A stretch of DNA of 48,202 nt. Origin: Candidatus Omnitrophota bacterium (GTDB taxonomy: Bacteria; Omnitrophota; Gorgyraeia; Aquiviventales; Aquiviventaceae). A program made the position numbers and the translations under genes. Shown here piece after piece: positions 147 through 47,912 of the stretch; within the stretch, counting starts at the first letter, position 1; every line of letters starts with the position of its first letter. The DNA lies in NCBI GenBank assembly GCA_023247255.1, contig JAHFGV010000008.1, forward strand, positions 1-48,202, given 5' to 3'. The notes under the pieces are model-generated. The model had not been told where the DNA came from. It did not search any database and worked only from the letters and a program-made list of their open reading frames with translations.

Positions 147-219
147 GATTGTCGATTTTGGATTTTCGATTGAAGACCGCTGTTCAATCGAAGATCGACA
201 ATCGTCAATCGACAATTCC
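147..219. repeat. heptad palindrome, GATTGTC/CAATCGA family, copy 1
   Basis: The left arm (147-172) is four 7-bp units of the type GATTGTC, GATTTTG, GATTTTC. The right arm (185-219) is five units of the reverse-complement type CAATCGA. Together they can fold into a long imperfect hairpin with a 12-base loop. A near-identical copy lies at 294-367 and a third at 40759-40830. It sits in the leader region of the BamD-like gene. Confidence 0.85.
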
Positions 220-293
220 CTCGGCTCTCTGATTGAAGGCTCATCTTCCTTCGAGCTCCTTAGGATGTTCAAAGAAACTGCCTTGGAATTTTC

Positions 294-367
294 GATTGTC
301 GATTTTGGATTTTCGATTGGAAGACGGCCGTTCAATCGAAAATCGACAATCGTCAATCGACAATTCC
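294..367. repeat. heptad palindrome, GATTGTC/CAATCGA family, copy 2
   Basis: This is a second copy of the element at 147-219, with the same order of units (left arm 294-319, right arm 333-367) and only a few base differences. The two copies are direct repeats separated by about 75 bp of unrelated sequence. The remaining bases up to 550 hold no gene that I can support. Confidence 0.85.
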
Positions 368-550
368 ATGGAATGAGCCTGTGGCACCGGCAGGGCCGCC
401 CCGATGGGGGAGACATCCGATCCACCCAGGGGAAGGCTTTACTTTACACGGGGGATTTGGTATCGTGAGTTCCTTGAAGATCAAGAAGCAGAGGGATAGA
501 AAGGGTTCTCTGTTGTGTATGGCACAGGCGAGGGGGAGGGAATCATCCGG

Positions 551-1522
551 ATGAATCGTTTGACGGATAAATACCGACAAACCGGGATCCTTCTCATGGG
601 CTTTATTTTCAGCCTATGTGGGGCTCCGCTAGCTTCTGCGGAGTGGGTATGGTCGCCACAGACCGGATGGATCGGGCCTGGGGGAGCGGTCAAAGACAAC
701 CCCGAAGATCAATTAACCTTCGCCCAGGCATTTTTTGAAAACCAGGAATATGACCGGGCTCGACGAGAGTTCCAGAAACTGTTGAAGGCCTATCAGGCTG
801 CCAAGCAGGCTCCGGAAGCTCAATATTATCTGGGCCGATGCGCGGAGGAGTCGGGAGACTATTACAAGGCTTTCTTAGAATACCGCAAGACCATTCAGAC
901 CTATCCCTCGACACAACGATTTGATGAGATCCTCGAGCGGGAGTATCGGATCGGTAATGCGTTCCTCGAAGGCAAGAAACGTAAGCTCTTTGGGAAGGTG
1001 GCGTTGATTCCTGCTCGGGATAAGGCGGTGGAAGTTTTTCAAGCGATGGTTGATGATGGGCCTTTTGGCGAGTATGGACAACTGGCCCAGTATAATCTAG
1101 GATTGGCCCATATGGCGCTGCAAGACTACGAGTTCGCGGTGAATGCTTTTGAGCAGCTCATCTTGCGCTATGCCGAGTCTCCATTGGTGGACGATGCAAG
1201 ATTTCAGATCGCTTTGGCAAGCCTAAAAGGCACCTTCAAGTCCGGATACGACCAATCCCCTACCGATACGGCCATTCGTGAGATGGAGGTTTTCGTCGAA
1301 TCCTATCCGGAAAGCGATTTGGCCAATGAAGCCAAAACCCGCCTGACGGAGCTCTACGAACGGCGCGCCGCCCACGAGTTTGAAGTCGGGCAGTTCTATG
1401 AGCACCGCCGGCATCCTCTTTCGGCAAAGCTTTACTACGAGACAATCGTGGAACGATACACCCACACCTCCTGGGCCACTCAGGCGATGGCCCGTCTTGA
1501 CGTCCTCAATCCCTCCCCGTGA
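551..1522 (+). CDS. BamD/YfiO-like TPR outer-membrane assembly protein
   Basis: The 323-residue product has an N-terminal signal peptide (hydrophobic stretch about residues 11-27, likely cleavage after ASA) followed by TPR-type helical repeats over the rest (for example FAQAFFENQEYDRARREF near residue 45). This is the architecture of BamD/YfiO, which helps the Bam complex insert outer-membrane beta-barrels from the periplasmic face. The ATG at 551 is chosen over an in-frame ATG at 515 because a GGGGGAGGG ribosome site lies 10 bases before it and the signal peptide starts there. There is no canonical lipobox; the only cysteine in the signal peptide has leucine before it, so the protein may be periplasmic rather than lipid-anchored. 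Its stop overlaps the next gene, lptE, which supports an envelope role. It could instead be a CpoB-like TPR protein. Confidence 0.75.
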   Translation: MNRLTDKYRQTGILLMGFIFSLCGAPLASAEWVWSPQTGWIGPGGAVKDNPEDQLTFAQAFFENQEYDRARREFQKLLKAYQAAKQAPEAQYYLGRCAEESGDYYKAFLEYRKTIQTYPSTQRFDEILEREYRIGNAFLEGKKRKLFGKVALIPARDKAVEVFQAMVDDGPFGEYGQLAQYNLGLAHMALQDYEFAVNAFEQLILRYAESPLVDDARFQIALASLKGTFKSGYDQSPTDTAIREMEVFVESYPESDLANEAKTRLTELYERRAAHEFEVGQFYEHRRHPLSAKLYYETIVERYTHTSWATQAMARLDVLNPSP

Positions 1523-1524
1523 TT

Positions 1525-2103
1525 ATGTCTGGTGCGGTTACGTCTGATCTGAAGCCTCCTCTTTTTCTGCTGTCTGCTGTCTGCTGTCTGCTGTCTGCTG
1601 TCTGCTGTCTTTCCGGTTGCGGCTATACCACACGGCCGGGGCTGGCGCCGCACTTAAAAACGATCTACGTCCAGCCGTTTACGAACCGCATTGACTTTAC
1701 CCAAGTGACGACGAGTGTCGAGTCGCTTCCTCTGTATCGGCATGGGATGGAAGTCACCCTGACAAGCGCCATCATCGATCGGTTTCAGTTCACCGGCCTG
1801 TTGCGTCCGGCCAGCCGTGAGCGGGCCGATTGCCGATTGGAAGGAGAAGTGATTTCTTTTCGTCGGGACGCCCTGCGGTATAACGCTTCTCAACAGATCG
1901 AGGAATGGCGTTTGAACCTGGTGGTCAACGTGCGGTTTTGGGATCAGACCAGCAATACGCTGCTTTGGCAGGAGGAGAGCCTGACGGGAGATACGACGTA
2001 TTTCGCACTCGGCTCCCAGGCGGAGTCGGAGGCCACAGCCCTTAACCGTGCCATCACCGACTTAGCGAGGAGAATCGTGGAACGCAGCGTCGAGAATTGG
2101 TAG
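1525..2103 (+). CDS. lptE: LPS-assembly lipoprotein LptE
   Basis: A 192-residue lipoprotein: signal peptide ending in a lipobox LSGC, then the GYTTRPGLAPHLKTIYVQPF start typical of LptE/LPS-assembly lipoproteins (DUF4136/LptE group). LptE plugs the LptD barrel and delivers LPS to the cell surface. The gene before it is BamD-like and the gene after it is holA, and lptE-holA is a conserved pair in many diderms, which supports the call. Two starts are possible: GTG at 1519, overlapping the previous stop as GTGA, or ATG at 1525, used here. The signal peptide is encoded largely by six perfect copies of the 7-bp unit CTGCTGT (1567-1608), which gives the repeated peptide LLSAVCC; loss or gain of one unit would shift the frame. 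Confidence 0.85.
   Translation: MSGAVTSDLKPPLFLLSAVCCLLSAVCCLSGCGYTTRPGLAPHLKTIYVQPFTNRIDFTQVTTSVESLPLYRHGMEVTLTSAIIDRFQFTGLLRPASRERADCRLEGEVISFRRDALRYNASQQIEEWRLNLVVNVRFWDQTSNTLLWQEESLTGDTTYFALGSQAESEATALNRAITDLARRIVERSVENW
1567..1608 (+). repeat. six perfect CTGCTGT heptamers inside lptE
   Basis: Six uninterrupted copies of CTGCTGT (42 bp) encode 14 residues of the LptE signal peptide, just before the lipobox. Because the unit is 7 bp, gain or loss of one copy shifts the frame and three copies change length by seven residues. Confidence 0.95.
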
Positions 2104-2125: not shown

Positions 2126-2161
2126 TCACAAATGTCGCGAAGCAGAATTCAGGAATCCCGT

Positions 2162-3393: not shown

Positions 3394-3432
3394 TGGCGGG
3401 GGTGTGTTTGTGTTTTCTAATCGAAAATCCAC

Positions 3433-3534
3433 GCTCAAGGCTTGAGGGAAGAACAGGCTTCTCGACGATGACCGAATCGTTCCCTAGAGCCTTGAGCCTA
3501 GAGCTCATTGAGGGTTTTTCAGCAGCCTGCTGAT
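3433..3534. repeat. CCTAGAG heptads joined to a CTGAAAAACCCTCA-type repeat
   Basis: CTCAAGG CTTGAGG (3433-3446) is complemented by CCTAGAG CCTTGAG CCTAGAG (3483-3503), another heptad palindrome. It runs directly into TGAGGGTTTTTCAGCAGCCTGC (3509-3530), an element that recurs inverted at 40713-40745 and in altered form at 34423-34443. The element abuts the murJ start codon and leaves no clear ribosome site. Confidence 0.75.
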
Positions 3535-8742: not shown

Positions 8743-9981
8743 ATGAGTCCCACGGGTTCTACAAGCAGCAGTCGAACTGTGACTATCCGAGTCCATCCGG
8801 AGCACTGCAAGACTCTCCCCGATCCTAACGGTAAAGGACGCAAGCGGATAATTGCTCAAGTACCCATCGAAGAAATTTATCGCTCGAGTGTTACCTACGG
8901 ACCTAACCCTAGGAATCAAAACCTAGGAACAAAGGTTTCTCAGAAAATTGAGGAGGGTCTTACTGCGAAACCCGGTTGGTTCTTGTACTTCAATCGGGGC
9001 ATTGTCTGGAATGCAAAATCAGCCGAGTACAATAACAAAACACAGGAGCTCACCGTAGAGTTACCCAGCGATCAGAATGAAGGTGTGCAAGGAGAAAGCA
9101 TATTTGGCAATCTGGATGGTGGTCATACGAATAGGGTTATCATTAAACAAATCCAAGAGGGTCTGTGGAAAAACTGGGATTCCCCATCGGAGCGCCAATA
9201 TGTAACTCTTGAGATACTCCTTGGGATTGAAGAAGGAATGTTGTCTGAGTTGGTCGGCGCAAGAAACACGAACATGGCTGTGACAGACTTAAGTCTGATC
9301 GTCTCGGGAAAATATATTGAGTGGCTGCGTGCTCTCCTACAAGAAGAAAATGTCGATCATAAAATCAACTGGAGACAGTTTGATGATACAGGCGACGTAA
9401 TGGGTGAAGACGTTATTGCGACTCTTTCCTTGTTGAATAAGAAATTGGAATCGAAGACGCGATGTTACAGTGGACAGGGGCGCATTATCAGTGCGTTAAA
9501 AGCGGATCCAAAGCTGATGGGCGGCCTTAAAGCTACGAAAGACGTGGCAATAGAGTTTTTCCGGTTTGTGGATTATCTTCACTCGCGTTTTGAGACGTGG
9601 TATATGGAAGAAGAAGGTATAGACATACAGAAGAGACAGGATGAAAACAAGCGGTCCGGTTTTGGGAAATTAGCGGGTGTGTCGCGTGGGGACCACGAAC
9701 TTATCTTTCTGCGAACCAGCATAAATTACAAGCTTTGGAAAGGATGGTTATTACCGCTGGCGTTTGCTTTTAATAGGATTGTCGACAGGGAACGTAGAAA
9801 TCCTGAACTTTGGAGGACGATTGCAGATCATGTGGGACCGAAGCTGTATTCCATATTAAGGGAGCAGACCAAAAATATGGGATACAATTTGGATAAGGTT
9901 GGCAAATCGCAGGCCATATGGGATAACTTGGAAGCTATCGCATGGGCTCAGTATGCGGAGCATCGATTAGCACTGGTATAA
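8743..9981 (+). CDS. AIPR-family (abortive infection phage resistance) protein
   Basis: The 412-residue product carries the pattern of the AIPR domain: NPRNQNLGTKVSQKIEEGL, then PGWFLYFNRGIVW, then NLDGGHTNRVI and VGARNTNMAVTDLSL. AIPR proteins are tied to abortive phage resistance and occur in defence islands; their biochemical activity is not well established. A good AAGGAG site precedes the ATG. The gene is visibly richer in A+T than its neighbours and lies between a DUF4143 ATPase and a toxin-antitoxin pair, which suggests acquisition by transfer. No restriction or methylase partner is adjacent, so whether it works alone is open. Confidence 0.65.
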   Translation: MSPTGSTSSSRTVTIRVHPEHCKTLPDPNGKGRKRIIAQVPIEEIYRSSVTYGPNPRNQNLGTKVSQKIEEGLTAKPGWFLYFNRGIVWNAKSAEYNNKTQELTVELPSDQNEGVQGESIFGNLDGGHTNRVIIKQIQEGLWKNWDSPSERQYVTLEILLGIEEGMLSELVGARNTNMAVTDLSLIVSGKYIEWLRALLQEENVDHKINWRQFDDTGDVMGEDVIATLSLLNKKLESKTRCYSGQGRIISALKADPKLMGGLKATKDVAIEFFRFVDYLHSRFETWYMEEEGIDIQKRQDENKRSGFGKLAGVSRGDHELIFLRTSINYKLWKGWLLPLAFAFNRIVDRERRNPELWRTIADHVGPKLYSILREQTKNMGYNLDKVGKSQAIWDNLEAIAWAQYAEHRLALV

Positions 9982-10743: not shown

Positions 10744-11875
10744 ATGTCGACGAGCCATTTGCCAGATAAACTGGACGAATTGCGAGGCCGGACGGAGTCG
10801 CTCCAGCAACGCTGGGCTCAACTGCGGAGGTATCTTTGACCTGCAGGGCCTCTCGGATAAAATCACCCAGATCGAGCAAGCCATGGCTCAATCTGATTTC
10901 TGGTCGGATCAAGAGCGCGCCGGCCAGACCATCCAAACGTTGAAAGCCCTCAAGTCTCAGCGCACACCCGTCGAGCAGTTCGAGCGAGACCTCAATGATA
11001 CCATCGAGCTGCTCACCATTCTCGATCCAACGGATACGGTCTCGTTAGATCAGATGGAACGTGACCTGTCGGCTTTGGAAGGACAATACGAGCGTCTGGA
11101 GATCCAACGATTCCTCGGTCAGCCAGTCGATCGCAAAGACGCCATCGTAGCGATTCACTCCGGAGCCGGAGGCACCGAATCCTGCGACTGGACGCAGATG
11201 CTTCTGCGGATGTATCAACGTTGGGGCGAGCAACGGGGTCTCGGTTGCCAGATCATCGACCTGTTGCCGGGTGAAGAGGCAGGGGTCAAGAACGTTACCC
11301 TGATCATCCGCGGGTCCTACGCCTACGGCTACCTCAAGGCTGAAGAAGGGGTCCATCGGCTGGTGCGTATTTCTCCCTTCGATGCCAACAAAAGACGGCA
11401 CACCTCGTTTGCCTCGGTCGATGTCGTGCCGGAGGCCGACGAAGATGCGCCGATTGATATCAAGGAGTCTGACTTGCGCATCGACGTTTACCGTTCCAGC
11501 GGCAAAGGGGGACAATCGGTCAATACCACCGATTCCGCCGTGCGGATCACGCACTTGCCCAGCGGCATCGTCGTTCAATGCCAGGATGAACGGTCGCAGT
11601 TGCAGAACAAGGCAAAAGCCCTGCGCGTTTTGAAATCCCGTCTGGCCGATTCGGAGCGTCGCAAAAAAGAGGAAGCGGCGGCTCGCGACTATGCATCCAA
11701 GCAGAAAATCGAATGGGGCTCGCAGATTCGGTCCTACGTTCTGCATCCGTACAACATGGTCAAAGATCACCGCACCGATTACGAGACCGGCAACGCCCTA
11801 GCGGTGTTGGACGGCAAGCTCGATCCTTTCATGGAAGCCTATCTGAGGTGGAAAACCCAACAAGCTAGCAGATAG
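10744..11875 (+). CDS. prfB: peptide chain release factor 2 (programmed +1 frameshift)
   Basis: RF2 recognises UGA and UAA stops and triggers peptide release. The gene is read in two frames: 31 codons from ATG 10744 to CTT 10834-10836, then a +1 slip over the in-frame TGA (10837-10839) to GAC and on to 11875, in all 376 residues. Seen: the stop-codon-recognition motif SPF (ISPFDANKRR), the catalytic GGQ (SSGKGGQSVNTT) and the RF2 helical N-domain. The slip site has the same layout as in E. coli. The frameshift is the usual RF2 autoregulation: little RF2, slow termination at UGA, more slipping. The stop codon lies in a TAGCAAA heptad repeat that leads to secA. Confidence 0.96.
10825..10840 (+). 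promoter_or_regulatory. RF2 programmed +1 frameshift site
   Basis: CGGAGG TAT CTT TGA C: an internal Shine-Dalgarno-like CGGAGG (10825-10830) three bases before the slippery CTT, then an in-frame TGA followed by C. All elements of the classical RF2 site are present at the classical spacing. Confidence 0.95.
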
Positions 11876-11955
11876 CAAATAGCAAATAGGCTAGGAGGAA
11901 CGGTAAGGATGTACAAGGAATCTATTTGCTATGTGCTCCATGACTATCTGCTGGC
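11866..11955. repeat. nested heptad inverted repeats between prfB and secA
   Basis: Three heptads TAGCAGA TAGCAAA TAGCAAA (11866-11886) are followed by complementary blocks. The pair 11880-11889/11922-11931 is a perfect 10-bp inverted repeat; 11867-11875/11944-11952 is a perfect 9-bp outer pair. The GGAGG at 11894-11898 and the ATG of a short reading frame (11909) lie in the loop. Confidence 0.85.
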
Positions 11956-11968: not shown

Positions 11969-14900
11969 ATGGTCAATTGGTTGCTTCAAAAATTCATTGG
12001 CACCTACCACGAGCGGACGTGCAAGCGTCTGTGGCCTATCGTCGAGCGGATCAATCAGCTTGAGCCGCAGATGCGCACACTCACCGATGAACAATTACGC
12101 GCCAAGACAAAAGACTTTCGAACTCGGCTGACGCTGGACATGCAGGCGGCACGGTTCTCGGATCCTTCCACGCCCGAGTGGTATGACTTGTCGATGGATG
12201 AGCGCCTGGTTGTCAGACAGCATCGAAGGCAATATCAGCAGCGGCTGTTGGATGCGATCCTTCCGGAAACGTTTGCGGTGGTGCGCGAGGTGGCGCGACG
12301 ACAGCTTTCGATGCGCCATTTTGACGTCCAACTGTTGGGAGGCATCATCCTGCACGAAGGCAAGATTGCCGAGATGGCAACCGGAGAAGGCAAAACGCTC
12401 GTCGCCACACTGGCTGCTTACCTCAATTCCCTCACCGGCCGAGGCGTGCACATCGTTACCGTCAACGACTACCTCGCCCGGCGCGATGCCCGCTGGATGG
12501 GGCCCATCTACCATGCGTTGGGCTTGTCGGTGGGGGTGATTCAGGGGGCGGATCCTGTGGAGCGTCGAGCGGGTGATGAGTCGCTTTCCTTCATATATGA
12601 TCCTGCCTGGACGAGTACCAATGAGCGTTTTATCTATCTGCGAACGGTGACTCGTAGAGAAAGCTACGCTGCCGATATCACCTATGGGCAGAACAACGAG
12701 TTCGGGTTCGATTATCTTCGTGACAATATGCGTTTTCGCAAGGATGATTTGTCCCAACGCGAGTTTCACTATGCAATCGTGGATGAGGTGGATAGTATCC
12801 TCGTTGATGAAGCGCGAACCCCTCTGATCATTTCAGGACCGGCGGAGGAATCCACCGACCTTTACCATCGGCTCGACAAGGTGGTGGATCGTTTGGAGAA
12901 GGGTGCTTGCTTTGAGGTGGATGAGAAGGCTCAGACAGTGAGCCTGACCGAAGAAGGCATCAAACAAGTGGAGCAACTTTTGGGGATCGGCAACCTTTAC
13001 GATGAGACCCACATGCGTCTGGTGCATCACGTCCACCAGGCCCTGCGGGCGCATGAGCTTTTCCGTAGCGATGTGGATTACGTGGTGAAGGATGGAGAGA
13101 TCATCATCGTCGATGAGTTCACCGGCCGCCTGATGCCGGGAAGGCGCTGGAGTGATGGCTTGCATCAAGCGATCGAGGCCAAAGAAAACGTGCACATCCG
13201 GCAGGAGAACCAAACCCTGGCCGCGGTTACGTTCCAAAACTACTTCCGGATGTATGAGAAGCTCGCTGGCATGACCGGAACGGCCGCTACAGAAGCTCAG
13301 GAGTTCAACGAGATCTACAAGCTGGATGTGGTGAGCGTTCCCACCAACCGTTCGCTGATTCGGACGAACTACCCGGATGTCGTTTACAAAACCGAGGCCG
13401 AGAAGTTTATCTCCGTCGTCGAGGAAATTGTGGAATTGCATCGCGCCGGCCGGCCGGTGCTCATTGGCACTATCTCCATCGACAAGTCGGAACACCTATC
13501 TCGGCTGCTCAAGGAGCCGGGGCCGTTTTACAAACGTTTGGGGATGCTGTGTCAGTGGGCGCTTGAAGAGTTGAAGAAAACGCAGGCTGTCGATGAAGGC
13601 CTTCGGCAGGATCTGTCACAGGCCTTGTCACGACCCGCGATGCTGACACAGAGCCAGGTGGAAGATCTGTTACGCCGGGTGGATGCGGTCGTTCCCAAAT
13701 CGCTGTTGGTGTTTCGCATGGAGCAGATCCTGCGGCTCGTCCAGACGATCACCACCATCAAGGCGGGTCTTGCGCACAACGTTCTGAACGCGAAATACCA
13801 TGAGCAGGAAGCTGGGATTGTCGCACAGGCGGGGCGAAAGGCTGCGGTGACCATTGCAACGAACATGGCCGGACGCGGCACGGATATCCTCTTGGGAGGC
13901 AATCCCCAAGCGTTGGCCGACGATGAGATTCGTCAGCAAGAGTCCCGGCGGCAGGCGCCGTTGGAAGCCTTCGAGAAACAGAAAATCGTCGAGCACTTTC
14001 AGGTTTTGTGTCAGAAAGAGCATGAAGAGGTGGTCGCCGTGGGGGGGCTGCATGTGTTGGGAACGGAGCGTCATGAAGCGCGCCGCATCGACAATCAGCT
14101 GCGCGGACGCTCCGGCCGTCAGGGGGATCCGGGTTCTTCCCGTTTCTATCTTTCGTTTGAAGACGATCTGATGCGTATTTTCGGTTCGGATAGGCTCTCC
14201 CGGTTGATGGAGTTTAAATGGTTTCAATGGGAAGAAGGGCTTCCCATCGAACATGCCATGGTGAGCCGGGCGATTGAAACATCGCAGCGTCGAGTCGAAG
14301 GCCACAATTTCGACATCCGCAAGCAATTGCTGGAGTACGACAACACGATGAATCGCCAGCGCGAAGTCATCTATGAGCAACGCCGCCGGATTCTCGAAGG
14401 CGTGGATATGCAGGGATTGATCACTGACATCATTCGAGAGATTGCGGAAGAACTCCTGGAATCTTTTGCATCAAAGACCCTACGCCCGGATGCCTGGGAC
14501 TTAGAGGGGCTCCGCCAGGCGATGGCCCGCCAATTTGGATTGTCGATCGCCGAGCTTAAATCGGATGAAGACCGGCAGATGCTTTCGGAACGATTAGCCG
14601 ATACCCTCCAGCATGCTTACGAAGCGAAACGTCAGCAGCTTGGGCCTGAGGTCATGGCCCAGCATGAGCGGTACATTTTACTCTCGATCATAGACGCCAA
14701 GTGGAAAGACCATCTTTATATGATGGATACCCTGCGAGAAGGAATCCACCTGCGGGCCTATGGCCAGCGGGATCCTGTCGTAGAGTATCAGCGGGAAGCC
14801 TATACCCTGTTTCAGGATATGGTCAGCGCCATCAAAGTCGAGTCCTTGACCGTCCTGTTGCGGTTTCAGCCGGTGGCCGAAGCCCAACCGCTCGTCGGTG

Positions 14901-15169
14901 TGTTTGAGAAAACCCCGCATCAGGAAGTGCATCCGGAGCTGTCCAGTAGCCTGACCGAGCGTTTCAGTTCATCAGCAGAAACACCGATAGAAGTTCGATC
15001 GGGGCCCAGGGCTGAGGGCTCTGGGCAACTGCCTCGAGCCCCGAGCCTAGAGCCTAGAGCCAAACAACGATCTGTCGTTGTAGGACAGCCTTCCGGACAC
15101 AAAGCGGGGCGCAACGATCCCTGTCCCTGCGGCAGCGGCCTGAAATACAAGAAGTGCCATGGCAAGTAA
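11969..15169 (+). CDS. secA: preprotein translocase ATPase SecA
   Basis: SecA drives post-translational export through SecYEG. Seen: Walker A ATGEGKT (about 137-143), HIVTVNDYLARRD, the DEVDSILVDEARTPL block, the MTGTAATEAQEF segment, ATNMAGRGTDILLGGN and LRGRSGRQGDPGSSRF of the second nucleotide-binding fold, the wing and scaffold domains, and a C-terminal zinc site CPCGSGLKYKKCH. At 1066 residues it is long (E. coli 901). One insertion of about 30 residues follows VIQGADPVERRAG and is known from other phyla. A second, of about 85 residues (roughly 516-600), lies between SEHLSRLLK and HNVLNAKYHEQEA. The linker before the zinc site is partly encoded by a heptad repeat (15001-15062). Confidence 0.97.
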   Translation: MVNWLLQKFIGTYHERTCKRLWPIVERINQLEPQMRTLTDEQLRAKTKDFRTRLTLDMQAARFSDPSTPEWYDLSMDERLVVRQHRRQYQQRLLDAILPETFAVVREVARRQLSMRHFDVQLLGGIILHEGKIAEMATGEGKTLVATLAAYLNSLTGRGVHIVTVNDYLARRDARWMGPIYHALGLSVGVIQGADPVERRAGDESLSFIYDPAWTSTNERFIYLRTVTRRESYAADITYGQNNEFGFDYLRDNMRFRKDDLSQREFHYAIVDEVDSILVDEARTPLIISGPAEESTDLYHRLDKVVDRLEKGACFEVDEKAQTVSLTEEGIKQVEQLLGIGNLYDETHMRLVHHVHQALRAHELFRSDVDYVVKDGEIIIVDEFTGRLMPGRRWSDGLHQAIEAKENVHIRQENQTLAAVTFQNYFRMYEKLAGMTGTAATEAQEFNEIYKLDVVSVPTNRSLIRTNYPDVVYKTEAEKFISVVEEIVELHRAGRPVLIGTISIDKSEHLSRLLKEPGPFYKRLGMLCQWALEELKKTQAVDEGLRQDLSQALSRPAMLTQSQVEDLLRRVDAVVPKSLLVFRMEQILRLVQTITTIKAGLAHNVLNAKYHEQEAGIVAQAGRKAAVTIATNMAGRGTDILLGGNPQALADDEIRQQESRRQAPLEAFEKQKIVEHFQVLCQKEHEEVVAVGGLHVLGTERHEARRIDNQLRGRSGRQGDPGSSRFYLSFEDDLMRIFGSDRLSRLMEFKWFQWEEGLPIEHAMVSRAIETSQRRVEGHNFDIRKQLLEYDNTMNRQREVIYEQRRRILEGVDMQGLITDIIREIAEELLESFASKTLRPDAWDLEGLRQAMARQFGLSIAELKSDEDRQMLSERLADTLQHAYEAKRQQLGPEVMAQHERYILLSIIDAKWKDHLYMMDTLREGIHLRAYGQRDPVVEYQREAYTLFQDMVSAIKVESLTVLLRFQPVAEAQPLVGVFEKTPHQEVHPELSSSLTERFSSSAETPIEVRSGPRAEGSGQLPRAPSLEPRAKQRSVVVGQPSGHKAGRNDPCPCGSGLKYKKCHGK
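15001..15062 (+). repeat. heptad palindrome inside the secA tail
   Basis: Left arm GGGGCCC AGGGCTG AGGGCTC TGGGCAA, right arm CCTCGAG CCCCGAG CCTAGAG CCTAGAG (15032-15059). It is translated in frame as part of the flexible linker before the SecA zinc motif. The units belong to the same family as those at 3483-3503 and 18537-18564. Confidence 0.85.
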
Positions 15170-15440: not shown

Positions 15441-17150
15441 GTGCTTCCCATTCCTGTTCCTTTCTTCCTCGCAGTCAGTAGCGCCATCCTCCTCGTGTTG
15501 GCCTTTCCGCCTTTTAACCAATCCTGGCTGGCCTGGATCGCCTGGGTGCCTTGGATGTATGCCTTGCGTACGCTTCCACGCCGCAAGGCTTTTTGGCTTT
15601 CGTGGCTGGTGGGGTTTGTGTTTTTTCTTGGCTCGATGGCCTGGTTGATCCACCTCCAAGAATTTGGAGGGCCATTAGCGTTTGTAGGCTGGTTTGCGCT
15701 CAGCGCGTATCTGGCTCTCTACTTCGCTCTCTTCGGTCTTATCGCTGATCAGGCGTATACCCGACACCCGACACCCTTCACCCGTCACGTCTTGATCCCC
15801 TCTGCATGGGTTGCCTTGGAGTACGTCCGCAGCCACCTGCTTTCAGGATTCGGCTGGAATCTGCTTGCCTATTCCCAGACTTCCTGGACACCGCTCATTC
15901 AAATGGCGGATATTACGGGAGCCTGGGGGGTGTCGTGGGTCATCGTCTTCGTGAATGGGGTGCTGACCGAATCCATACACAGGGCTACTGGGCAAGGGGC
16001 GTGGGGCAGCAGAGCGGGGACAAGAGACAAGGGACAGGGGACAAGGGATAGGAAAGAACCGACCAACAGCGAAGAAAATCTAAAACAAGCAATCAGTGAA
16101 TGGGTAGCTGCCGTTGGTCTTGTGCTCTTAGTCCTTTGCTACGGTATATGGAGGCTTCGAAGCGTACCGGGTGGAGGGATAGTGCGCGTTGCTGTTGTGC
16201 AGGGGAACATCCCCCAAGAGCAGAAATGGCAGGAGGCTTACGTCGCAGAGATTCTTGATCGTTATGCGCGTTTGACAAAGGAAGCGGATCAGACAGCGAC
16301 GGATCTGATCGTTTGGCCGGAGACTTCAGTGCCCGGTCTGTTGGGAGCCGACGAAACAATCACTCAGCGAATGGGGGAGCTTGCCAGAGGGATTCAGCGG
16401 CCGTTGCTCGTGGGGGCTGCGATGCTAAGCTCCGTCACAATGGATGATGGCAATTTTGAACTGACCAACAGCGCCGCTTTGATGGATCCGTCAGGATCCA
16501 TTGTCGCCCGATACGATAAACAACGTCTAGTACCCTTTGGCGAGTTCATCCCGGCTGAAAAGCTATTTCCATGGCTGCGGAATATTCTGCCCCCCATCGG
16601 GGATTTCGTTGCCGGCCATGAAGCAACGGTGTTCCATTCCCATGCACAAACACTGAGTGAGGGGCAAGGGGCATGGGGCGAGGGGCGAGGGGAGACAGTC
16701 GTTCCCACACCCCCTGTCTCCCACCCCATGCCCCCTTTCAGTGTGCTCATCTGCTTCGAGGATGTCTTTCCTGAGATCGCCCGTCGGTTTGTTCGTGACG
16801 GAGCCCGGTTTCTGTTGGTCATCACCAACGACGCGTGGTTTGGCCACAGCGCAGCAGCCTTCCAGCATGCTCAGGCCTCGACCTTCAGGGCGGTTGAGTT
16901 GCGAGTTCCGGTCGCTCGCGCAGCCAACACCGGATGGTCCGGTTGCATCGATGCGCATGGACGCTGGCTGGATGCGGTTAAGGATTCGAAAGGCGATGCG
17001 TTGTTTGTGGCAGGAACCACGACCTGCGAGTTGAGTCTGCCAGTCGTCAAGAGTTTGTATCTTCAGTGGGGCGATTGGTTTGCCTGGTTGTGTCTGTTTG
17101 GTTGTCTCATCGCAGTCTGTTATAATGTTCGTTTCTTCCATGACTGTTAG
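15441..17150 (+). CDS. lnt: apolipoprotein N-acyltransferase
   Basis: Lnt adds the third acyl chain to lipoproteins in the inner membrane. The 569-residue product has about six hydrophobic segments in its first 250 residues, then a periplasmic nitrilase domain with the triad Glu294 (WPETSVP), Lys360 (RYDKQRLVPFGEF) and Cys438 (ICFEDVFP), and a last transmembrane helix. It starts with GTG. Three heptad arrays are embedded and translated: ACCCGAC units (residues 107-116), GGGGCAA/GGGACAA units (about 183-204) and a palindromic GGGGCGA array (about 407-433), the last only a few residues before the catalytic cysteine. Normal Lnt is about 510, so these inserts explain the extra length. All key residues are intact. 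It supplies mature lipoproteins to Lol genes downstream. Confidence 0.95.
   Translation: MLPIPVPFFLAVSSAILLVLAFPPFNQSWLAWIAWVPWMYALRTLPRRKAFWLSWLVGFVFFLGSMAWLIHLQEFGGPLAFVGWFALSAYLALYFALFGLIADQAYTRHPTPFTRHVLIPSAWVALEYVRSHLLSGFGWNLLAYSQTSWTPLIQMADITGAWGVSWVIVFVNGVLTESIHRATGQGAWGSRAGTRDKGQGTRDRKEPTNSEENLKQAISEWVAAVGLVLLVLCYGIWRLRSVPGGGIVRVAVVQGNIPQEQKWQEAYVAEILDRYARLTKEADQTATDLIVWPETSVPGLLGADETITQRMGELARGIQRPLLVGAAMLSSVTMDDGNFELTNSAALMDPSGSIVARYDKQRLVPFGEFIPAEKLFPWLRNILPPIGDFVAGHEATVFHSHAQTLSEGQGAWGEGRGETVVPTPPVSHPMPPFSVLICFEDVFPEIARRFVRDGARFLLVITNDAWFGHSAAAFQHAQASTFRAVELRVPVARAANTGWSGCIDAHGRWLDAVKDSKGDALFVAGTTTCELSLPVVKSLYLQWGDWFAWLCLFGCLIAVCYNVRFFHDC
15759..15786 (+). repeat. ACCCGAC heptads inside lnt
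   Basis: Four tandem units ACCCGAC, ACCCGAC, ACCCTTC, ACCCGTC are translated as TRHPTPFTRH in a loop between membrane segments of Lnt. Confidence 0.85.
15989..16051 (+). repeat. nine heptads inside lnt
   Basis: Nine consecutive 7-bp units of GGGGCNN then GGGACAA type (63 bp, 21 codons) are translated in frame as a Gly/Arg/Asp-rich stretch between the last N-terminal membrane segments of Lnt. Confidence 0.88.
16661..16738 (+). repeat. heptad palindrome inside lnt near the catalytic cysteine
   Basis: Left arm GGGGCAA GGGGCAT GGGGCGA GGGGCGA GGGGAGA (16661-16695), right arm five complementary units such as CCCACAC and CCCATGC (16704-16738). The array (78 bp, 26 codons) is in frame and ends four codons before the segment leading to ICFED. 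Confidence 0.88.
17098..17126 (+). promoter_or_regulatory. possible lysS promoter within the lnt 3' end
   Basis: TTGGTT (17098-17103), 17-base spacer, perfect TATAAT (17121-17126). It would start transcription about 70 bases before lysS. Confidence 0.5.
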
Positions 17151-17202: not shown

Positions 17203-18726
17203 ATGGAACGGCAAGAACAGTCTGAGATTCGCTATGAAAAGCTGCAAGCCCTCAAGCGGCAGAATATCTACCCTTATGGCGCAGCCTTTCCTAAGGCCGA
17301 ATCGCTTCAACAGCTCGTGGCCCATTTTTCCGAAGGGCTCTCGGTCACCACGGCCGGTCGGTTGAGCGCCAAGCGGGGACATGGGGGACTTTCCTTTGCG
17401 GATCTGCGGGATGCAAGCGGGAAAATTCAGATCTGCCTGAAACAGGAGCGTGTCGGAGCGGAGCCCTACCAGTTCTTTGAGAATCTGGATCTGGGAGATT
17501 TCGTAGGCGTCGAAGGCGCTCTCTTTAAGACGAAGACCGAAGAGATCACCATTCAGGTGTCTCGGCTTACCTTGCTCGCCAAGGCGTTGCGTCCGCTGCC
17601 GGAGAAATGGCATGGGCTCAAGGACGTGGAAGTCCGCTATCGCAGGCGATACCTGGATTTCATCGCCAATGAGCCGGTCCGTCGGGTCTTTCTGCAGAGA
17701 AGCCGCCTGCTTTCCTGTTTGCGCGCGAGTCTTGAGCGTCATGGGTTCTTGGAGGTCGAGACCCCGATGATGCACCCCATCCCCGGTGGGGCAGCCGGTG
17801 AGCCTTTCGTCACGCACCACAACGCGCTGGACGTCGAACTCTATTTGCGCCTGGCACCGGAGTTGTATCTGAAGCAACTTTTGGTCGCAGGTCTTGAGCG
17901 CATCTACGAGTTAAACCGTTCCTTTCGCAACGAAGGCCTATCGACGCAGCACAACCCCGAGTTCACCATGTTGGAGGTCTATGCGGCTTACCAGGATTGC
18001 GCTTCCATGATGAACCTGGTTCAGGAGCTGATCTGCGACGCAGCCCGGAATCTGCTCGGAAGCCTTCAATGGGAATACCAAGGCAAGATGATTGATCTGA
18101 CTCCTCCCTGGGATCGGGTTTCATTCGCTCAGACGATGGCCGATATGGGCTTGACTCCACAGACTCCTCTTGAATCCATGCAGCAGGCTCTGCAGAAAAA
18201 GGGCGTCCAGGTCAAAGGTCTGTCGCGTTCGCAAATGGTCCGACTCATCGAGCAACTCTTTGAGCCCAAGGCCAAGTCTAAACCCTTGTTTGTCACCGAC
18301 TATTGGACGGAGATTTCGCCTCTGGCAAAGAGCAAGCCGGACGATTTTTCTATTGCCGATCGCTTTGAGCTTTTCATCGGCGGAATGGAAGTCGCAAACG
18401 CCTACTCTGAGTTGAATGATCCGATCGAACAGCGTCGTCGGTTTGAAGCTCAACTGCAAGAGCGTTCAGGGTTGGGGGCTGAGGGCTGTTTTGAAAAACG
18501 CTCTGGACTCAGGGTTGGGGGCTGTAGGCCTCCCAGAACCCCGAGCCCCGAGCCCCGAGCCAAGATGATTGATGAGGGATTTGTGGAAGCCCTCGAATAC
18601 GGCATGCCGCCGGCCGGGGGTCTAGGCGTTGGAGTGGATCGCCTCGCGATGCTGTTACTCAACCAGCCCTCGATCAAGGATGTAATCCTGTTTCCGCTGC
18701 TAAAGCCGGAAAGTCGCCACACGTGA
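17203..18726 (+). CDS. lysS: lysyl-tRNA synthetase, class II
   Basis: LysRS charges tRNA-Lys. The 507-residue product shows the N-terminal OB-fold anticodon-binding domain (about 55-150), then class II motif 1 (LEVETPMMHPIPGGAAGEPF), motif 2 (FRNEGLSTQHNPEFTMLEVY) and motif 3 (GGLGVGVDRLAMLLL). Glycine-rich EVANAYSELNDP is also intact. Residues 422-454 are encoded by a 99-bp heptad palindrome that replaces the usual short stretch between QRRRFEAQLQ and MIDEGFVEALEYGMPP, right before the ATP-binding motif 3 region. As the only LysRS seen and apparently intact otherwise, it presumably tolerates the insert as a surface loop. Confidence 0.96.
   Translation: MERQEQSEIRYEKLQALKRQNIYPYGAAFPKAESLQQLVAHFSEGLSVTTAGRLSAKRGHGGLSFADLRDASGKIQICLKQERVGAEPYQFFENLDLGDFVGVEGALFKTKTEEITIQVSRLTLLAKALRPLPEKWHGLKDVEVRYRRRYLDFIANEPVRRVFLQRSRLLSCLRASLERHGFLEVETPMMHPIPGGAAGEPFVTHHNALDVELYLRLAPELYLKQLLVAGLERIYELNRSFRNEGLSTQHNPEFTMLEVYAAYQDCASMMNLVQELICDAARNLLGSLQWEYQGKMIDLTPPWDRVSFAQTMADMGLTPQTPLESMQQALQKKGVQVKGLSRSQMVRLIEQLFEPKAKSKPLFVTDYWTEISPLAKSKPDDFSIADRFELFIGGMEVANAYSELNDPIEQRRRFEAQLQERSGLGAEGCFEKRSGLRVGGCRPPRTPSPEPRAKMIDEGFVEALEYGMPPAGGLGVGVDRLAMLLLNQPSIKDVILFPLLKPESRHT
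18466..18564 (+). repeat. 99-bp heptad palindrome inside lysS
   Basis: Units TCAGGGT TGGGGGC TGAGGGC (18466-18486), a second similar run TCAGGGT TGGGGGC TGTAGGC (18509-18529), then AACCCCG AGCCCCG AGCCCCG AGCCAAG (18537-18564). The length is 33 codons and the frame is kept. Confidence 0.9.
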
Positions 18727-22170: not shown

Positions 22171-22179
22171 CCTGTTAGA

Positions 22180-22415: not shown

Positions 22416-22566
22416 CAGAATGCAGCGTTGAGTAAAGTAGAAGGGCGGGAGACAGCCCCTGTGATTTTCAAGTAAAACGCGGTACACTAGTGTCGTTTCC
22501 CGTTTCCTGCAAAGATCCCGATAGGTACCATGACTTGTGGGGTTTATGAGAAGGGAGGACCGCGGG

Positions 22567-29401: not shown

Positions 29402-29435
29402 AGTAAGCAGTCGGTTCCTCAGCTCCTCGGTAATA

Positions 29436-29678: not shown

Positions 29679-29712
29679 TAGGCACTCTGAGGTTTAGGGA
29701 TGGGCCCTAGAA

Positions 29713-31087: not shown

Positions 31088-32158
31088 ATGACTAATTTTC
31101 GGTTCGTGCGGTTTGGATTTGTGGTTATCAGCGCCTTGATGGGACTCTTGTTGATTGAACATCCGATGATACCGGTGGGATGGCTGCGGGCTTTGGTCGG
31201 GGCTGCGGCCGGTGCGCTTTTGGTGTTGCTTGAAGCGGCCCTGCACCGCATCGGGCGCGTTTCGGTCCGTGGATTCTCGGCAGCCGTCTTTGGGCTTCTA
31301 TTCGGTTTGATCATGGCCAAGTTGGTTTCGGATGCCATCGGTCTGTTACCGTTGGATGTGGGAACGGCGGGATTGATACGGGTGGTTTTGACATGGACAT
31401 TCTGCTACCTGGGCATGGCCATGGCGCTGCGCGGACGTGATGAGTTTGCGGTGATCATTCCCTATGTTCGCTTGGCACGGCAGGATCGCGGAGAGGAATT
31501 CTATCTCATCGACACCAGCGCGATTATCGATGGCCGCCTGGTGGATCTGTGCCGGACGCGGTTTATCGAAGGCCGTCTGGTGATCCCTCGGTTTGTACTG
31601 CAGGAACTGCAAACGGTAGCCGACAGCACCGATCCGCTCAAACGCAGCCGCGGCCGTCGGGGGCTTGAGGTGCTCAATCAATTGCGCGAGCTTTCGACCA
31701 TCGATGTGCGTGTTCACGAAGAAGACCTGCCGCATGTGGCGGCCACCGATGAGAAATTGGTGAAGCTGGCCCAGCTTTTGGGAACCAAGATCGTCACCAA
31801 CGACTACAACCTTAACAAGGTCGCTCAGTTTCAGGGAGTGGCTGTATTGAATGTGAACGAATTGGCCCAGGCGTTGCGTCCAGTGGTGCTTCCTGGGGAG
31901 ACGATTGAGATCAGGCCGATCAAAGAAGGTAAAGAGGCTGCTCAGGCTGTCGCCTACCTCGATGATGGCACGATGGTGGTCGTGGAGAACGGCCGGAATT
32001 TGATCGGCCAGCGTATTCGAGGGGTGGTAACCAGTGTGCTCCAGACATCCGCAGGCCGAATGGTGTTCGTCCGATCCGAAGGGCAAACCACGCGACAGGC
32101 CCATTCATCGGAACACGCATCGGATGAAAAGCGTGGACTCTTGACCGGCCGGGGCTAA
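31088..32158 (+). CDS. PIN/TRAM-domain integral membrane protein
   Basis: A 356-residue protein of the YacL/PilT-like group: four transmembrane helices in the first 120 residues, a PIN nuclease domain (about 140-260; LIDTSAIIDGR, ELQTVAD, ATDEKLVKLA, TNDYNLNK supply the acidic residues) and a C-terminal TRAM domain. Function is thought to be RNA-related but is not settled. The ATG at 31088 has a GAGGGG site six bases upstream, made by the radA stop region; a TTG at 31082 is in frame. The C-terminal 25 residues are low in complexity. Confidence 0.93.
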   Translation: MTNFRFVRFGFVVISALMGLLLIEHPMIPVGWLRALVGAAAGALLVLLEAALHRIGRVSVRGFSAAVFGLLFGLIMAKLVSDAIGLLPLDVGTAGLIRVVLTWTFCYLGMAMALRGRDEFAVIIPYVRLARQDRGEEFYLIDTSAIIDGRLVDLCRTRFIEGRLVIPRFVLQELQTVADSTDPLKRSRGRRGLEVLNQLRELSTIDVRVHEEDLPHVAATDEKLVKLAQLLGTKIVTNDYNLNKVAQFQGVAVLNVNELAQALRPVVLPGETIEIRPIKEGKEAAQAVAYLDDGTMVVVENGRNLIGQRIRGVVTSVLQTSAGRMVFVRSEGQTTRQAHSSEHASDEKRGLLTGRG

Positions 32159-32159
32159 T

Positions 32160-32419
32160 GACTCGTATTGTGTCATGTTCCAAGATCTAGTACTCACGTT
32201 TGTGTCATGTTTCTAAGATTCAGCACTCACGTCTGTTTCATGAGTCATGTGTTGTGTGTCATGAAAGACTGTTTCATGTTTTATGTGTCATGAGTTATGG
32301 AAAGCAAAAGAGCCCCTTTGGCTATGCTTGAGATACTTGTTTATTTTCTGCTTTTTCATGACACATAACGCATGGAACATGACACAATCCTCATTACTTC
32401 TCTTGGAACATGACACAAG
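32160..32419. mobile_element. MITE-like element, inverted and rearranged, ends lost
   Basis: TCATGNN heptads, the AAAGCAAAAGAGCCCCTTTGG stem sequence, and a block CCTCATTACTTCTCTTGGAA that is the reverse complement of the left block in other copies, so this copy lies in opposite orientation. It is extended by an extra CACTCACGTCTG/TGTGTCATGTT duplication on its left. Terminal repeats are not found. It fills the gap before ispD. Confidence 0.7.
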
Positions 32420-36035: not shown

Positions 36036-36707
36036 ATGCCTCACGCCCCTCGTCCCCTGTCCCCAAGGAAAGGTTTCTTCATCACCCTCGAAGGTCCCGA
36101 GGGCTCAGGCAAATCGAGTCAGGGACGGTGGTTGGTCAGGCGTTTACGACGGGCGGGCTACGCTGTCGTAGGATTGCGTGATCCAGGCTCGACAAACCTG
36201 GGACGAGCTCTGCGACGCATTCTGCTCCATCGGAAAGAGGATATGTCTGCACTCATGGAGGCGCTTCTGTTTATCGGGGCTCGCGTGCAGTTGGTGGAAG
36301 AGCACATCCAACCCGCGCTGGAGCAGGGAAAGATCGTCGTCTGCGACCGGTTCCATGATTCAACCGTGGCTTATCAAGGATTCGGCGCAGGCTTGGACGT
36401 GAACTGGCTCGATGCGCTGGGACGCAGAGCCATTCGGGATATTACGCCTACGCTGACCCTCTTGTTGGATCTTCCGACGGAACAAGGCTTCAAGCGCTTG
36501 CGTCACAGCCATGACCGCATGGAGCGTAAAACGAGGGCGTTCCACCGCAGTGTCCGTCAAGGTTATTTGCAGCTTGCCAAGCGCGAGCCTAAGCGTTTTA
36601 TGATCATCAACGCTGCACAACCTGCCTCACAGGTTCGTGCACAACTGGAGGAAGTGGTGCTGAAATACCTCAAGTGCAAAAGTTTTTCACTAGTCACTAG
36701 TCACTGA
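36036..36707 (+). CDS. tmk: thymidylate kinase
   Basis: Tmk phosphorylates dTMP to dTDP. The 223-residue product has the P-loop EGPEGSGKSSQ (about 20-30), DRF (CDRFHDSTVAYQG) and the LID RLRHSHDRMERK. Both ends are repeat-derived: residues 3-10 lie over CCCCTCG TCCCCTG TCCCCAA heptads (36048-36068), and the last residues SFSLVTSH come from CACTAGT heptads. holB follows 18 bp downstream, a common tmk-holB pair. Confidence 0.94.
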   Translation: MPHAPRPLSPRKGFFITLEGPEGSGKSSQGRWLVRRLRRAGYAVVGLRDPGSTNLGRALRRILLHRKEDMSALMEALLFIGARVQLVEEHIQPALEQGKIVVCDRFHDSTVAYQGFGAGLDVNWLDALGRRAIRDITPTLTLLLDLPTEQGFKRLRHSHDRMERKTRAFHRSVRQGYLQLAKREPKRFMIINAAQPASQVRAQLEEVVLKYLKCKSFSLVTSH

Positions 36708-36720
36708 TCACTGGTCACTC
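36686..36720. repeat. five CACTAGT-type heptads across the tmk stop
   Basis: TTCACTA GTCACTA GTCACTG ATCACTG GTCACTC. The tmk TGA (36705-36707) lies inside the array, so the last eight residues of Tmk are repeat-encoded. The array ends five bases before the holB ATG. Confidence 0.9.
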
Positions 36721-36725: not shown

Positions 36726-37703
36726 ATGGCTTGGGACTCTATCATCGGACAGGAATTGGCGAAGCGAATCTTGCAGGAGCATTTGGCAACTGCAAGGGTG
36801 GCGCAAGCCTATCTGTTGGCTGGTCCGGAAGGGGTAGGTAAGCGTCTGCTTGCGTTGGAGATGGCCAAGGCGTTAAACTGCGCCTTGCAGGCTTCAGAGG
36901 CTTGTGATGCTTGTCATTCGTGTGTGTCGATTGCGCGCGGCGTCCATCCGGACGTGCACGGATTGAGTGTTGAAGCAGACGCAGATAGGATTAAGATCGA
37001 CGCGGTGCGCCAGATGCTGAGCCGGATTGCGCTACGCCCATTCAATGCGAATGTGTCAGTCGTGATTCTGGATGGGGTGGAACGTCTGACGGAAGAAGCC
37101 GCCAATGCGTTGCTCAAGTCATTGGAAGAGCCTCCCGCCCATGCCCGGTTTATTTTGATTACGTCTGTTCTGTCTGGTTGTCTACCGACGATTGTGTCCC
37201 GTTGCCAGATCATTCGGTGTCCGGGTCTGAATCCACAAATCGTGGCGGAGTTTCTAAAAGGACATTCGTGCGATGAAAAGACAGCCGGGTATCTGTCGGT
37301 TTTGTCTTGTGGGAGCCTGTCCCGGGCCATGGCTTGGGCGAGTGAATGGGAGGGCTACCAACGTTTACTTGCGCGCTTTGAGGCCACAGGGCCGTCTGTG
37401 TGGCTTGAGGAAAAGTTACCTGAAACGCGCAAAGATCTGACCTGGGCTTTGGATGGCATGGTGATGTGGTTACGCGATGTGGCTTTTGTCGCAAGCGATG
37501 GTGCGTCATGGGTGCTGCACGCGGATCGGGCCAAGGTGCTTGACGAACAGGCGCAGTCCATGGATGTGGATCTGTGCGTGGAAACGGCATTTCAGCTTCT
37601 GGCTCTGCGCGAATCGTTGGAGCAGTTCGTCAGTCCGCGTCTGGTCGCCACTCTCGCACGCGAGCAATGGCTCTGCCTTTTGACTGGGCTTTTGCAAAAA
37701 TAG
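36726..37703 (+). CDS. holB: DNA polymerase III subunit delta prime
   Basis: Clamp-loader AAA subunit of 325 residues: P-loop GPEGVGKR, zinc module with four cysteines (CALQASEACDACHSC), VVILDGVERLTEEAANALLKSLEEP, sensor SRCQ. Delta prime is usually catalytically inert yet keeps a P-loop in many phyla. The last six residues TGLLQK and the TAG stop are supplied by the left end of a MITE-like element (ACTGGGCTTTTGCAAAA), so the original C-terminus may have been lost or replaced. Confidence 0.93.
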   Translation: MAWDSIIGQELAKRILQEHLATARVAQAYLLAGPEGVGKRLLALEMAKALNCALQASEACDACHSCVSIARGVHPDVHGLSVEADADRIKIDAVRQMLSRIALRPFNANVSVVILDGVERLTEEAANALLKSLEEPPAHARFILITSVLSGCLPTIVSRCQIIRCPGLNPQIVAEFLKGHSCDEKTAGYLSVLSCGSLSRAMAWASEWEGYQRLLARFEATGPSVWLEEKLPETRKDLTWALDGMVMWLRDVAFVASDGASWVLHADRAKVLDEQAQSMDVDLCVETAFQLLALRESLEQFVSPRLVATLAREQWLCLLTGLLQK

Positions 37704-37999
37704 CCAACGCGTCGACCGAGTGTTGTGTCCTATTCCAAGAGAAGTAAGGAGGATTGTGTCATGTTTCATGAGTCATGTGTCATGAAAGGCTGTTTCATGT
37801 GTTATGTGTCATGAGTCATGGAAAGAAAAAGGAGCACTTTGGCCATGCCTGATATGCCTGTTTATTTTCTGCTTTTTCATGACACATAACACATGACTCA
37901 TGACACAGACGTGAGTGCTGCATTAGAACCATAATCCACTTTCTTCTTGGCCCTTGGCCACTTGGCCACTAATCTCGATGCATTTTGCAAAACCTCAGT
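37683..37999. mobile_element. MITE-like element with TTTTGCAAAA terminal repeats, long copy
   Basis: Left end ACTGGGCTTTTGCAAAA (37683-37699) lies inside the holB 3' end; right end TTTTGCAAAACCTCAGT (37983-37999). The interior is as in the other copies, plus an extra AACCATAATCCACTTTCTTC and TTGGCCACTTGGCCAC segment shared with the copy before lnt. This fills the gap before metG with no gene inside. Confidence 0.85.
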
Positions 38000-38019
38000 T
38001 TTGAGTGAGAGTAAGCACG

Positions 38020-40712: not shown

Positions 40713-40830
40713 TAGGATGCTGAAAAACTCGTCTTGGCTCTAGGCTGAGATAATTTTCGATTGTAGATTCTCGATTGTCGATTGGAAAACACAACAAATC
40801 GACAATCGAAGATTGACAATCGACAATTCG
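40713..40830. repeat. CTGAAAAACCCTCA-type element followed by GATTGTC/CAATCGA palindrome
   Basis: 40713-40745 is an inverted, diverged copy of the composite element before murJ (GGATGCTGAAAAACTC then CTCTAGGCTGAG). 40759-40830 is the third copy of the heptad palindrome: GATTGTA GATTCTC GATTGTC, then CAATCGA AGATTGA CAATCGA CAATTCG. The rest up to 40926 holds no gene. Confidence 0.8.
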
Positions 40831-40926
40831 TTGGGCCTATGTTTCCAGCCAAAAACCCCGTGCCCCACATCGTCAGCTTTGAGCGAAGGGACGTTTTTCC
40901 GCAGCCGGCTACGGTGTAGATGCTAA

Positions 40927-45116: not shown

Positions 45117-45125
45117 CTTTGCTGT

Positions 45126-45353: not shown

Positions 45354-45365
45354 ACTCAGACTATT

Positions 45366-47123: not shown

Positions 47124-47146
47124 GTCAAGGACAAACGATACCGATA

Positions 47147-47181
47147 AGGGGCAAGGGATGGGAGACGGGGGACGTGGGAAA
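47147..47181. repeat. five G-rich heptads between ilvB and ilvH
   Basis: AGGGGCA AGGGATG GGAGACG GGGGACG TGGGAAA, about 30 bases before the ilvH ATG. Confidence 0.75.
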
Positions 47182-47213
47182 GCGAAGCAACAAATGGGAT
47201 TTCATTACAAGCG

Positions 47214-47693
47214 ATGAGTGAAAGACATACGATTTCCTGTTTGGTCGAAAACCACTTCGGGGTCCTGGCCCGGGTGTCGGGCCTGATCAGTGCCCGTGCT
47301 TTCAACATCGACTCCTTGACCGTGAGTACCACCGAGGATCCAACGATCTCGCGCATGACGATTGTCGTCGATGCCGATGCCATCAAATTGGAGCAGGTTA
47401 AGAATCAGCTCAATCGCCTCATCGATGTCATCGAGGTCCAGGAGCTCAAGGAAGGGCAATTCATCGATCGGGAGCTGTTGTTGGCTCGCGTCAGCGTCGA
47501 TGGCCGCTCCAGAGCCGAGATGGAATCCATCGTGAGAAACTTCGGTGGGAGACTGGCAGAGGCGGATGAGGATTCTGTGGTGATTGAAGCAGCAGGCGAT
47601 ACCCATACGCTCGACCGTCTCGTTGAGCAGTTACGCTCCTACGGAATCACGAAGCTGGTTCGGACCGGTCGTGTGGCCCTCGAAAAACAGTGA
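47214..47693 (+). CDS. ilvH: acetolactate synthase small (regulatory) subunit
   Basis: The 159-residue product has an N-terminal ACT domain (HTISCLVENHFGVLARVSGL, FNIDSLTVSTTEDPTISRMT) and the C-terminal ALS_ss domain (LARVSVDGRSRAEMESIVRNF). It binds valine and controls IlvB. 160 residues is the family norm. The stop TGA is within the first CAGTGAC heptad of the following repeat. Confidence 0.96.
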   Translation: MSERHTISCLVENHFGVLARVSGLISARAFNIDSLTVSTTEDPTISRMTIVVDADAIKLEQVKNQLNRLIDVIEVQELKEGQFIDRELLLARVSVDGRSRAEMESIVRNFGGRLAEADEDSVVIEAAGDTHTLDRLVEQLRSYGITKLVRTGRVALEKQ

Positions 47694-47912
47694 CCAGTGA
47701 CTAATACAAAGGAACTAAGTCGTGCAGCCATTCCCCTCACCTGTTTCCTCTCCCCTGGGGGGAGAGGGGTGGGGTGAGGGAGCGTTGGAATGACACAAAA
47801 CTAATTTCTTGTGTATTAGTGACTGGTGACTAGTGAAAGGCTGAAAAGCGTATGAGCGTTCTATTTTTTTCCTTGGTGTTAACGGGTCACTGATCACTAG
47901 TCACTGGTCACT
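47688..47912. repeat. CAGTGAC/GTCACTG heptads and a C-rich/G-rich palindrome after ilvH
   Basis: CAGTGAC CAGTGAC (47688-47701) overlaps the ilvH stop. TAGTGAC TGGTGAC TAGTGAA (47817-47837) faces GGTCACT GATCACT AGTCACT GGTCACT (47885-47912), giving an imperfect hairpin. Between them is CCTCTCCCCTGGGGGGAGAGG (near 47748-47768), a perfect-looking palindrome of another family. No gene is present. Confidence 0.85.

Follow-up and report, generated by a model that had tools for sequence, protein, structure and literature searches.

What kind of sequence repeats a motif of seven nucleotides at one gene boundary after another, and within genes as well, with the motif itself changing from place to place? 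The question is raised by a 48,202-nt stretch of DNA from an Omnitrophota bacterium, here called the window (G000:C20:1-48202), which is part of a 2.18-Mb genome, G000, that is in 64 contigs and 91% complete. Heptanucleotide repeats have been reported as common in bacteria since 2007, with no agreed cause; a heptanucleotide excess is said to have been described by Mrazek in that year, and the STRR of cyanobacteria are heptanucleotide SSRs. The answer favored here is that the paired arrays of the window, and of the genome at large, are probably the arms of small, non-autonomous, mobile palindromic elements.

Extent of the 7-bp periodicity

Array clusters were called from 24-nt windows with at least 18 matches at a given lag. 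Across the 48,202 nt there are 21 clusters at lag 7, none at lags 2-5, 8 and 10-13, one at lag 6, two at lag 9 and, for the harmonic at lag 14, five; the excess at seven that was originally suspected from the letters is real. Order-3 Markov simulations of the window (n=40) yielded a total of zero lag-7 clusters and, together with the lag controls, rule out chance or base composition as the source of the arrays. The same comparison of lags, suggested at the outset as a check, gives the same answer beyond the window, with 121 lag-7 clusters in 433 kb sampled elsewhere in G000 and at most 8 at any other lag from 2 to 13. For two species of one genus, G002 and G024, the lag-7 counts are 38 (vs 8 at lag 8, in 693 kb) and 41 (vs 1, in 564 kb) respectively; both genomes are GC-rich, and their elevated counts of 15-30 at lags 6, 9 and 12 are taken to be codon periodicity.

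Site by site, with a Markov null for a 60-nt segment, 16 of the 22 positions at which arrays had been proposed stand at P<0.001, the rest being borderline (27654, 38020, 47147 and 47817, P=0.0025), weak (18807, P=0.009) or essentially two units (47688, P=0.03). To these are to be added TCATGNN arrays that had been passed over, at 15221, 22252-22368, 29504-29631, 32234-32386 and 37755-37907. The multiplicity of unit families, coding arrays included, is as described from the first inspection, and other units are seen in relatives.

Anatomy of the palindromic elements

A paired element has two arms of about four 7-bp units, the second arm inverted, and a loop of 4-60 nt. That many arrays are followed by their reverse complement is borne out by 72 of the 121 strict arrays sampled in G000, whose inverted partner is no more than 130 nt away; about 40% have no such partner nearby. 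In all families examined the mode is about four units per arm (20/39 arms in G024, 16/26 in G002a, 41/59 in G000A and 30/47 in G000B). Examples in the window are the family B palindromes at 143-220 (GATTNNC units, about four per arm, with a 10-14 nt loop) and 283-364, the latter with a near-identical copy at L093:9526-9602 that extends over both arms and the loop and into part of the flanks. Others are a degenerate CCTAGAG palindrome at the S20/MurJ gene boundary (3428-3504) and a TCACTNN/NNAGTGA palindrome at 47817-47916.

Each arm is a word spelled with few unit variants, commonly in the order AAAA or ABAB, the variants in G024 being AATGCGG, AGTGCGG, AATTCGG and AATGGGG. Core bases of the unit are conserved at about 0.9-1.0, with two or three positions variable. 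Likeness is higher for adjacent units than between arms (0.885 vs 0.764 in the GAGACAG family of G002, 0.844 vs 0.808 for the units of G024), and at the variable positions the two arms of one element agree no better than arms taken from different elements. It is therefore the motif that persists and not perfect stem pairing, which is rejected as a conserved property. Predicted RNA hairpins are strong (median z -4.8 to -6.4). The original prediction had invoked a common mechanism that sees the 7-bp period rather than the sequence. Within a family, however, the four to five core bases are conserved at 0.93-1.00 genome-wide, so that sequence is seen as well as period; the common architecture stands, while a common generating machine that sees the period goes beyond what the arrays display. 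Nor is the period always seven, since a rarer 8-bp class with the same inverted four-unit layout occurs elsewhere in G000 (GTTNGCNN) and in relatives (GTGATTNA in G013 and GTCACANN in G002). Loci of the GTTNGCNN sister class, which resembles the GTTGCTYN octads of Geobacter metallireducens, are L083:3201-3326, L086:3477-3600, L097:7401-7451, L098:15055, L098:17485, L099:7011 and L283:13230.

Dispersed families and their MITE context

Two dispersed families, TCATGNN (37) and GATTNNC (33), together supply 70 or more of the 121 arrays sampled from G000, and because of this and of the location of TCATGNN inside MITEs, most arrays are seen to have been copied and not separately generated. The MITEs concerned, MITE-A, have an 18-bp TIR, AACTGRGSTTTTGCAAAA, with 54 exact matches in G000; in the sampled part of that genome such TIRs bound 15 spans of 207-319 bp, one 26-bp span being excluded, and every one of the 15 carries TCATGNN arrays. 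Within the window MITE-A is found at 22179-22416 (with this TIR and TCATGNN arms), 29435-29679 (complete, with arms at 29504-29537 and 29590-29631), 32130-32400 (rearranged or decayed, with several TCATGNN arrays) and 37682-38000 (complete, with three). Only family A is short, non-coding, multi-copy and TIR-bounded in the manner of a MITE; in the bare heptad palindromes it is the arms that make up the inverted repeats. Several GGCTNNN/GGGTTNN elements are bounded by a second TIR-like motif, AGGATGCTGAAAAAC, which also adjoins one GATTNNC element, the family B palindrome at 40714-40839. GATTNNC palindromes are sometimes nested within GGCTNNN outer arms.

In G002, copies with the same loop resemble one another over the length of the element but not outside the arms. 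Identity begins and ends at or near the arms for L110:7937/8453 and L269:19776/L270:3917; in another pair of copies, L084:17024/L100:8820, it extends into outer TIR-like sequence. The loops of G024 elements with the same unit are mostly dissimilar and thus not explained by simple copying, which leaves room for a less probable reading in which arms are re-written. A dispersed palindromic repeat of about 73 bp that is not heptad (ATGAGGAGTCCGGTTCCC...GGGAACCGGAC) is present in G002 at L110:4450-4521 and 14580-14652; it has many copies in G024, but none at the site orthologous to L110:14580.

Placement between and within genes

By a crude home-made gene predictor, on which the placement counts rest, 97 of the 121 G000 arrays are intergenic (vs 24% of random 35-mers) and 10 are over gene ends (vs 4%), with gene interiors depleted (13/121 vs 64%). 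Even so, essential genes of the window, read on the plus strand, are interrupted in frame. A GGCTNNA/TNNAGCC palindrome (15000-15070) is inside the C-terminal linker of SecA. Lnt (15441-17150) is interrupted three times, by an ACCCGAC array (15754-15792), by GGGGCNN/GGGACAN arrays (15983-16052) and, immediately ahead of VLICFED, a motif of the CN-hydrolase domain, by a GGGGCNA palindrome (16655-16736). In LysRS (17203-18726) a GGCTNNG/GGGTTNN palindrome (18461-18565) encodes about 30 residues between LQER and MIDEGF. The signal peptide of lptE (1519-2103, plus strand) is encoded largely by a perfect direct array of six TCTGCTG units (1564-1618), giving LLSAVCC heptapeptide repeats. Stop codons occur inside arrays in the release-factor gene (PCRF/RF-1 domain), where a TAGCAAA array at 11858-11940, its inverted partner at about 11921-11940, lies over the stop codon, and in thymidylate kinase, whose C-terminus and stop codon are encoded by a plus-strand TCACTNN array (36684-36719).

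Stop-free interruptions in relatives affect PheT, dihydroorotate dehydrogenase, semialdehyde dehydrogenase, PurL, a radical-SAM protein, Lnt and the tail of DnaK; the PurL insert (48 nt) and one at L256 (75 nt) are missing in the congener. The SecA of L001 has a palindrome in the same C-terminal linker as that of G000. At L110:7937-8003 a GGFTLVELLV-type prepilin draws its leader region from a heptad palindrome, for which the congener has a different unit.

Since 7 and 3 have no common factor, all three frames of a perfect 7-bp array read as one cyclic heptapeptide, and tolerance is therefore set by total length and not by entry frame. Gene boundaries accept the elements, as do loops of essential proteins where the insert is in frame, and the natural inserts in LysRS, PheT, SecA, Lnt and PurL map where such proteins put up with extra residues. 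For annotation the warning is that repeated peptides like GSRLKAQ or RNAEFGM in MAG proteins should be taken as mobile-DNA inserts.

Relatives and turnover of the unit

By SecA the closest named relative is a Candidatus Omnitrophota MAG at 68% identity, the other matches listed being mostly far lower, which makes Omnitrophota the likely phylum on sequence grounds too. Within the family the units are GTTCAAG and GCAGAAG in L001, GAGACAN and GCGTAAT in G002, AATGCGG in G009, GACCCAT in G013 and GACAAGC in G017. The GGCTNNA unit has a patchy distribution over families, 39 of 384 Omnitrophota-group genomes having it. Some genomes had no arrays in the stretches sampled (L116, L119, L121 and L123). 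In the 80 SecA loci, 7 lag-7 clusters were found in about 1.43 Mb outside L001. A textbook palindrome with TTGAATT units is present at a Geomobilimonas locus (L008:6048-6157).

LysRS has a heptad insert at one codon position in 13 genera of the family, with GGCTCAA, GGCTCGA, GGTTCAA, GGGGCAG, GGTACAA, GACAAGC or related units; elsewhere in the family and the class that position is a short loop, and the arrays of L140 and L145 are direct only. On a LysRS and Lnt tree, several branches of which are weakly supported, presence of the insert is scattered and GGGGCAG is in three non-sister genera, both of which go against a single ancestral insertion followed by drift only.

The comparison of orthologous loci that had been called for was run on G002 and G024, whose flanks are 86-96% identical, and whole elements are indeed present in one species only. 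In a hand tally of heptad-unit elements with both flanks placed, 7 are G002-only, 6 are G024-only and 4 sites are occupied in both; opposite one further G002 element is a run of N. Of the shared sites, one has the same unit, one has units a core base apart (GCGTAAT vs GCGGAAT) and two have unrelated units (GAGACAG vs GAATGCG in the alignments). Each species is dominated by its own units, and orthologous sites with wholly different units in these two species of one genus keep position, period and inverted layout. With flanks as diverged as these, no clean target-site duplication is readable at the empty sites.

Search for a mobilizing enzyme

None of nine Y1 transposase loci (PF01797 matches) has lag-7 arrays within 1.5 kb, and a RAYT/REP system is ruled out, the arrays not flanking a RAYT. 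Two inward-facing MITE-A TIRs 4.2 kb apart (G000:C30:38905-43164) mark a candidate autonomous element. This sole long TIR-bounded interval has no match to DDE_Tnp_1, which is accordingly an unlikely MITE-A partner. Long transposons bounded by heptad arms were rejected, since inverted pairs that share a unit and lie 150-5000 bp apart number just 4, 1 and 2 in three genomes, and in G000 direct pairs are about as many. A mobilizing gene was thus not found among Y1 transposase loci, by DDE_Tnp_1 or from long-range inverted pairs.

Mechanism and alternatives

Since the words differ between relatives, in some cases at identical sites, the elements look like a mobile family that changes sequence and keeps layout, and we conclude that they are mobile or formerly mobile palindromes with iterated-motif arms. 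In each family the motif would be bound by a transposase-like or accessory protein, its copies may turn over within an arm by replication slippage, and new families would re-occupy the same tolerant sites, from which different units at orthologous sites would result. Much less probable is a bolder version in which a single kind of machinery makes four-unit 7-bp arms, or re-writes them, whatever the unit, site and geometry being inherited and the sequence replaced genome-wide periodically, with units as species-specific addresses of a co-evolving recognition protein.

Slippage might also be the whole story, a favored 7-nt step expanding any sequence in place, with hairpins arising by template switching, unit change by drift and within-array homogenization, and no mobile element involved. 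It was put forward by Mrazek and co-workers for heptanucleotide SSRs, insofar as a later account conveys their view (PMC4679880). The greater likeness of units within than across arms, the alternating ABAB words with their lag-14 harmonics, the perfect six-unit array in lptE and the direct-only LysRS arrays of L140 and L145 are all in keeping with it. That slippage alone suffices is nevertheless unlikely, given that one unit is at many loci per genome yet differs between congeneric genomes, that arms of unrelated families all keep to a length near four units, that sites pass from empty to complete palindrome and that many arrays are inside TIR-bounded MITEs. A role as sites for a host regulator or nucleoid protein, four per side and inverted, or as transcription terminators or mRNA stabilizers, would accommodate the mostly intergenic location and the strength of the predicted RNA hairpins, and the combination of conserved cores with variable bases unmatched between paired arms fits recognition of sequence over stem pairing. 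However, positions mostly not conserved in congeners (13 species-specific vs 4 shared), units that differ between species and insertion within conserved enzymes are not expected of such sites, and we consider this improbable. Reasoning purely from layout, one can also imagine a telomerase-like enzyme extending each 3′ end of a break by repeated copying of a short template, after which the ends are joined as inverted arms around an arbitrary loop. It would predict constant orientation, unrelated loops and arms that are homogeneous but mutually different, each with the same partial unit at its two ends, but some copies share loops and some arrays are inside MITEs, making it very improbable indeed.

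Relation to known systems

The nearest likeness is to Geobacter metallireducens, for which heptanucleotide elements of four tandem units (Gmet_H4##, GGACCGG) are described as present in many copies, both inside genes and between them, along with octanucleotide sites (GTTGCTYN) paired on opposite strands; they are interpreted as RNA or global-regulator/IHF sites (PMC2700814). As far as that description goes, four tandem 7- or 8-bp units, many copies and several unit families per genome are shared, and the Geobacter 8-bp and MTYCTGA classes form opposite-strand pairs at variable distance, as here, with IS elements near some pairs (PMC2700814). Ortholog comparison, in-frame protein insertions and unit replacement are reported here and, within the sections of that account bearing on these repeats, not there, and the phylum is different (PMC2700814). 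Rickettsia palindromic elements (RPE), from Ogata and co-workers, are about 150 bp with a conserved encoded peptide and, as outlined in a review (PMC10969869), resemble the present elements as short palindromes of several families, in frame in unrelated metabolic genes and between genes. Insertion of that sort in conserved coding genes is found here in LysRS, Lnt, SecA, PheT, PurL, DHODH, Asd and others; arms of iterated 7-mers are not mentioned for RPE in the review's outline (PMC10969869).

With MITEs and REP-type palindromes the elements share a non-autonomous, dispersed nature, and MITE-A has ordinary TIRs; unlike them they have iterated heptad arms and many unit families on one geometry, with no partner transposase found. 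Heptanucleotide SSRs include GGGAATC in Xanthomonas and GGGGATT in Nostoc, some in inverted pairs (PMC4692102), and TAACTGA in Beggiatoaceae (PMC4679880). Together with STRR these are likewise degenerate 7-bp tandem arrays, mostly intergenic, but any one genome has a single unit or a few, in up to 26-43 copies and mainly direct, whereas here there are about four units per arm, mainly inverted, and many units per genome. No paper joining the Geobacter elements, RPEs and heptanucleotide SSRs was found in the openly licensed literature. What the present elements offer is a testable recasting of heptanucleotide repeats as discrete elements, whose four-unit inverted arms are gained, lost and swapped at fixed sites.

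A minor observation in the window is a lower-GC stretch at 8743-9981 that encodes an AIPR-domain protein (abortive-infection phage resistance family).
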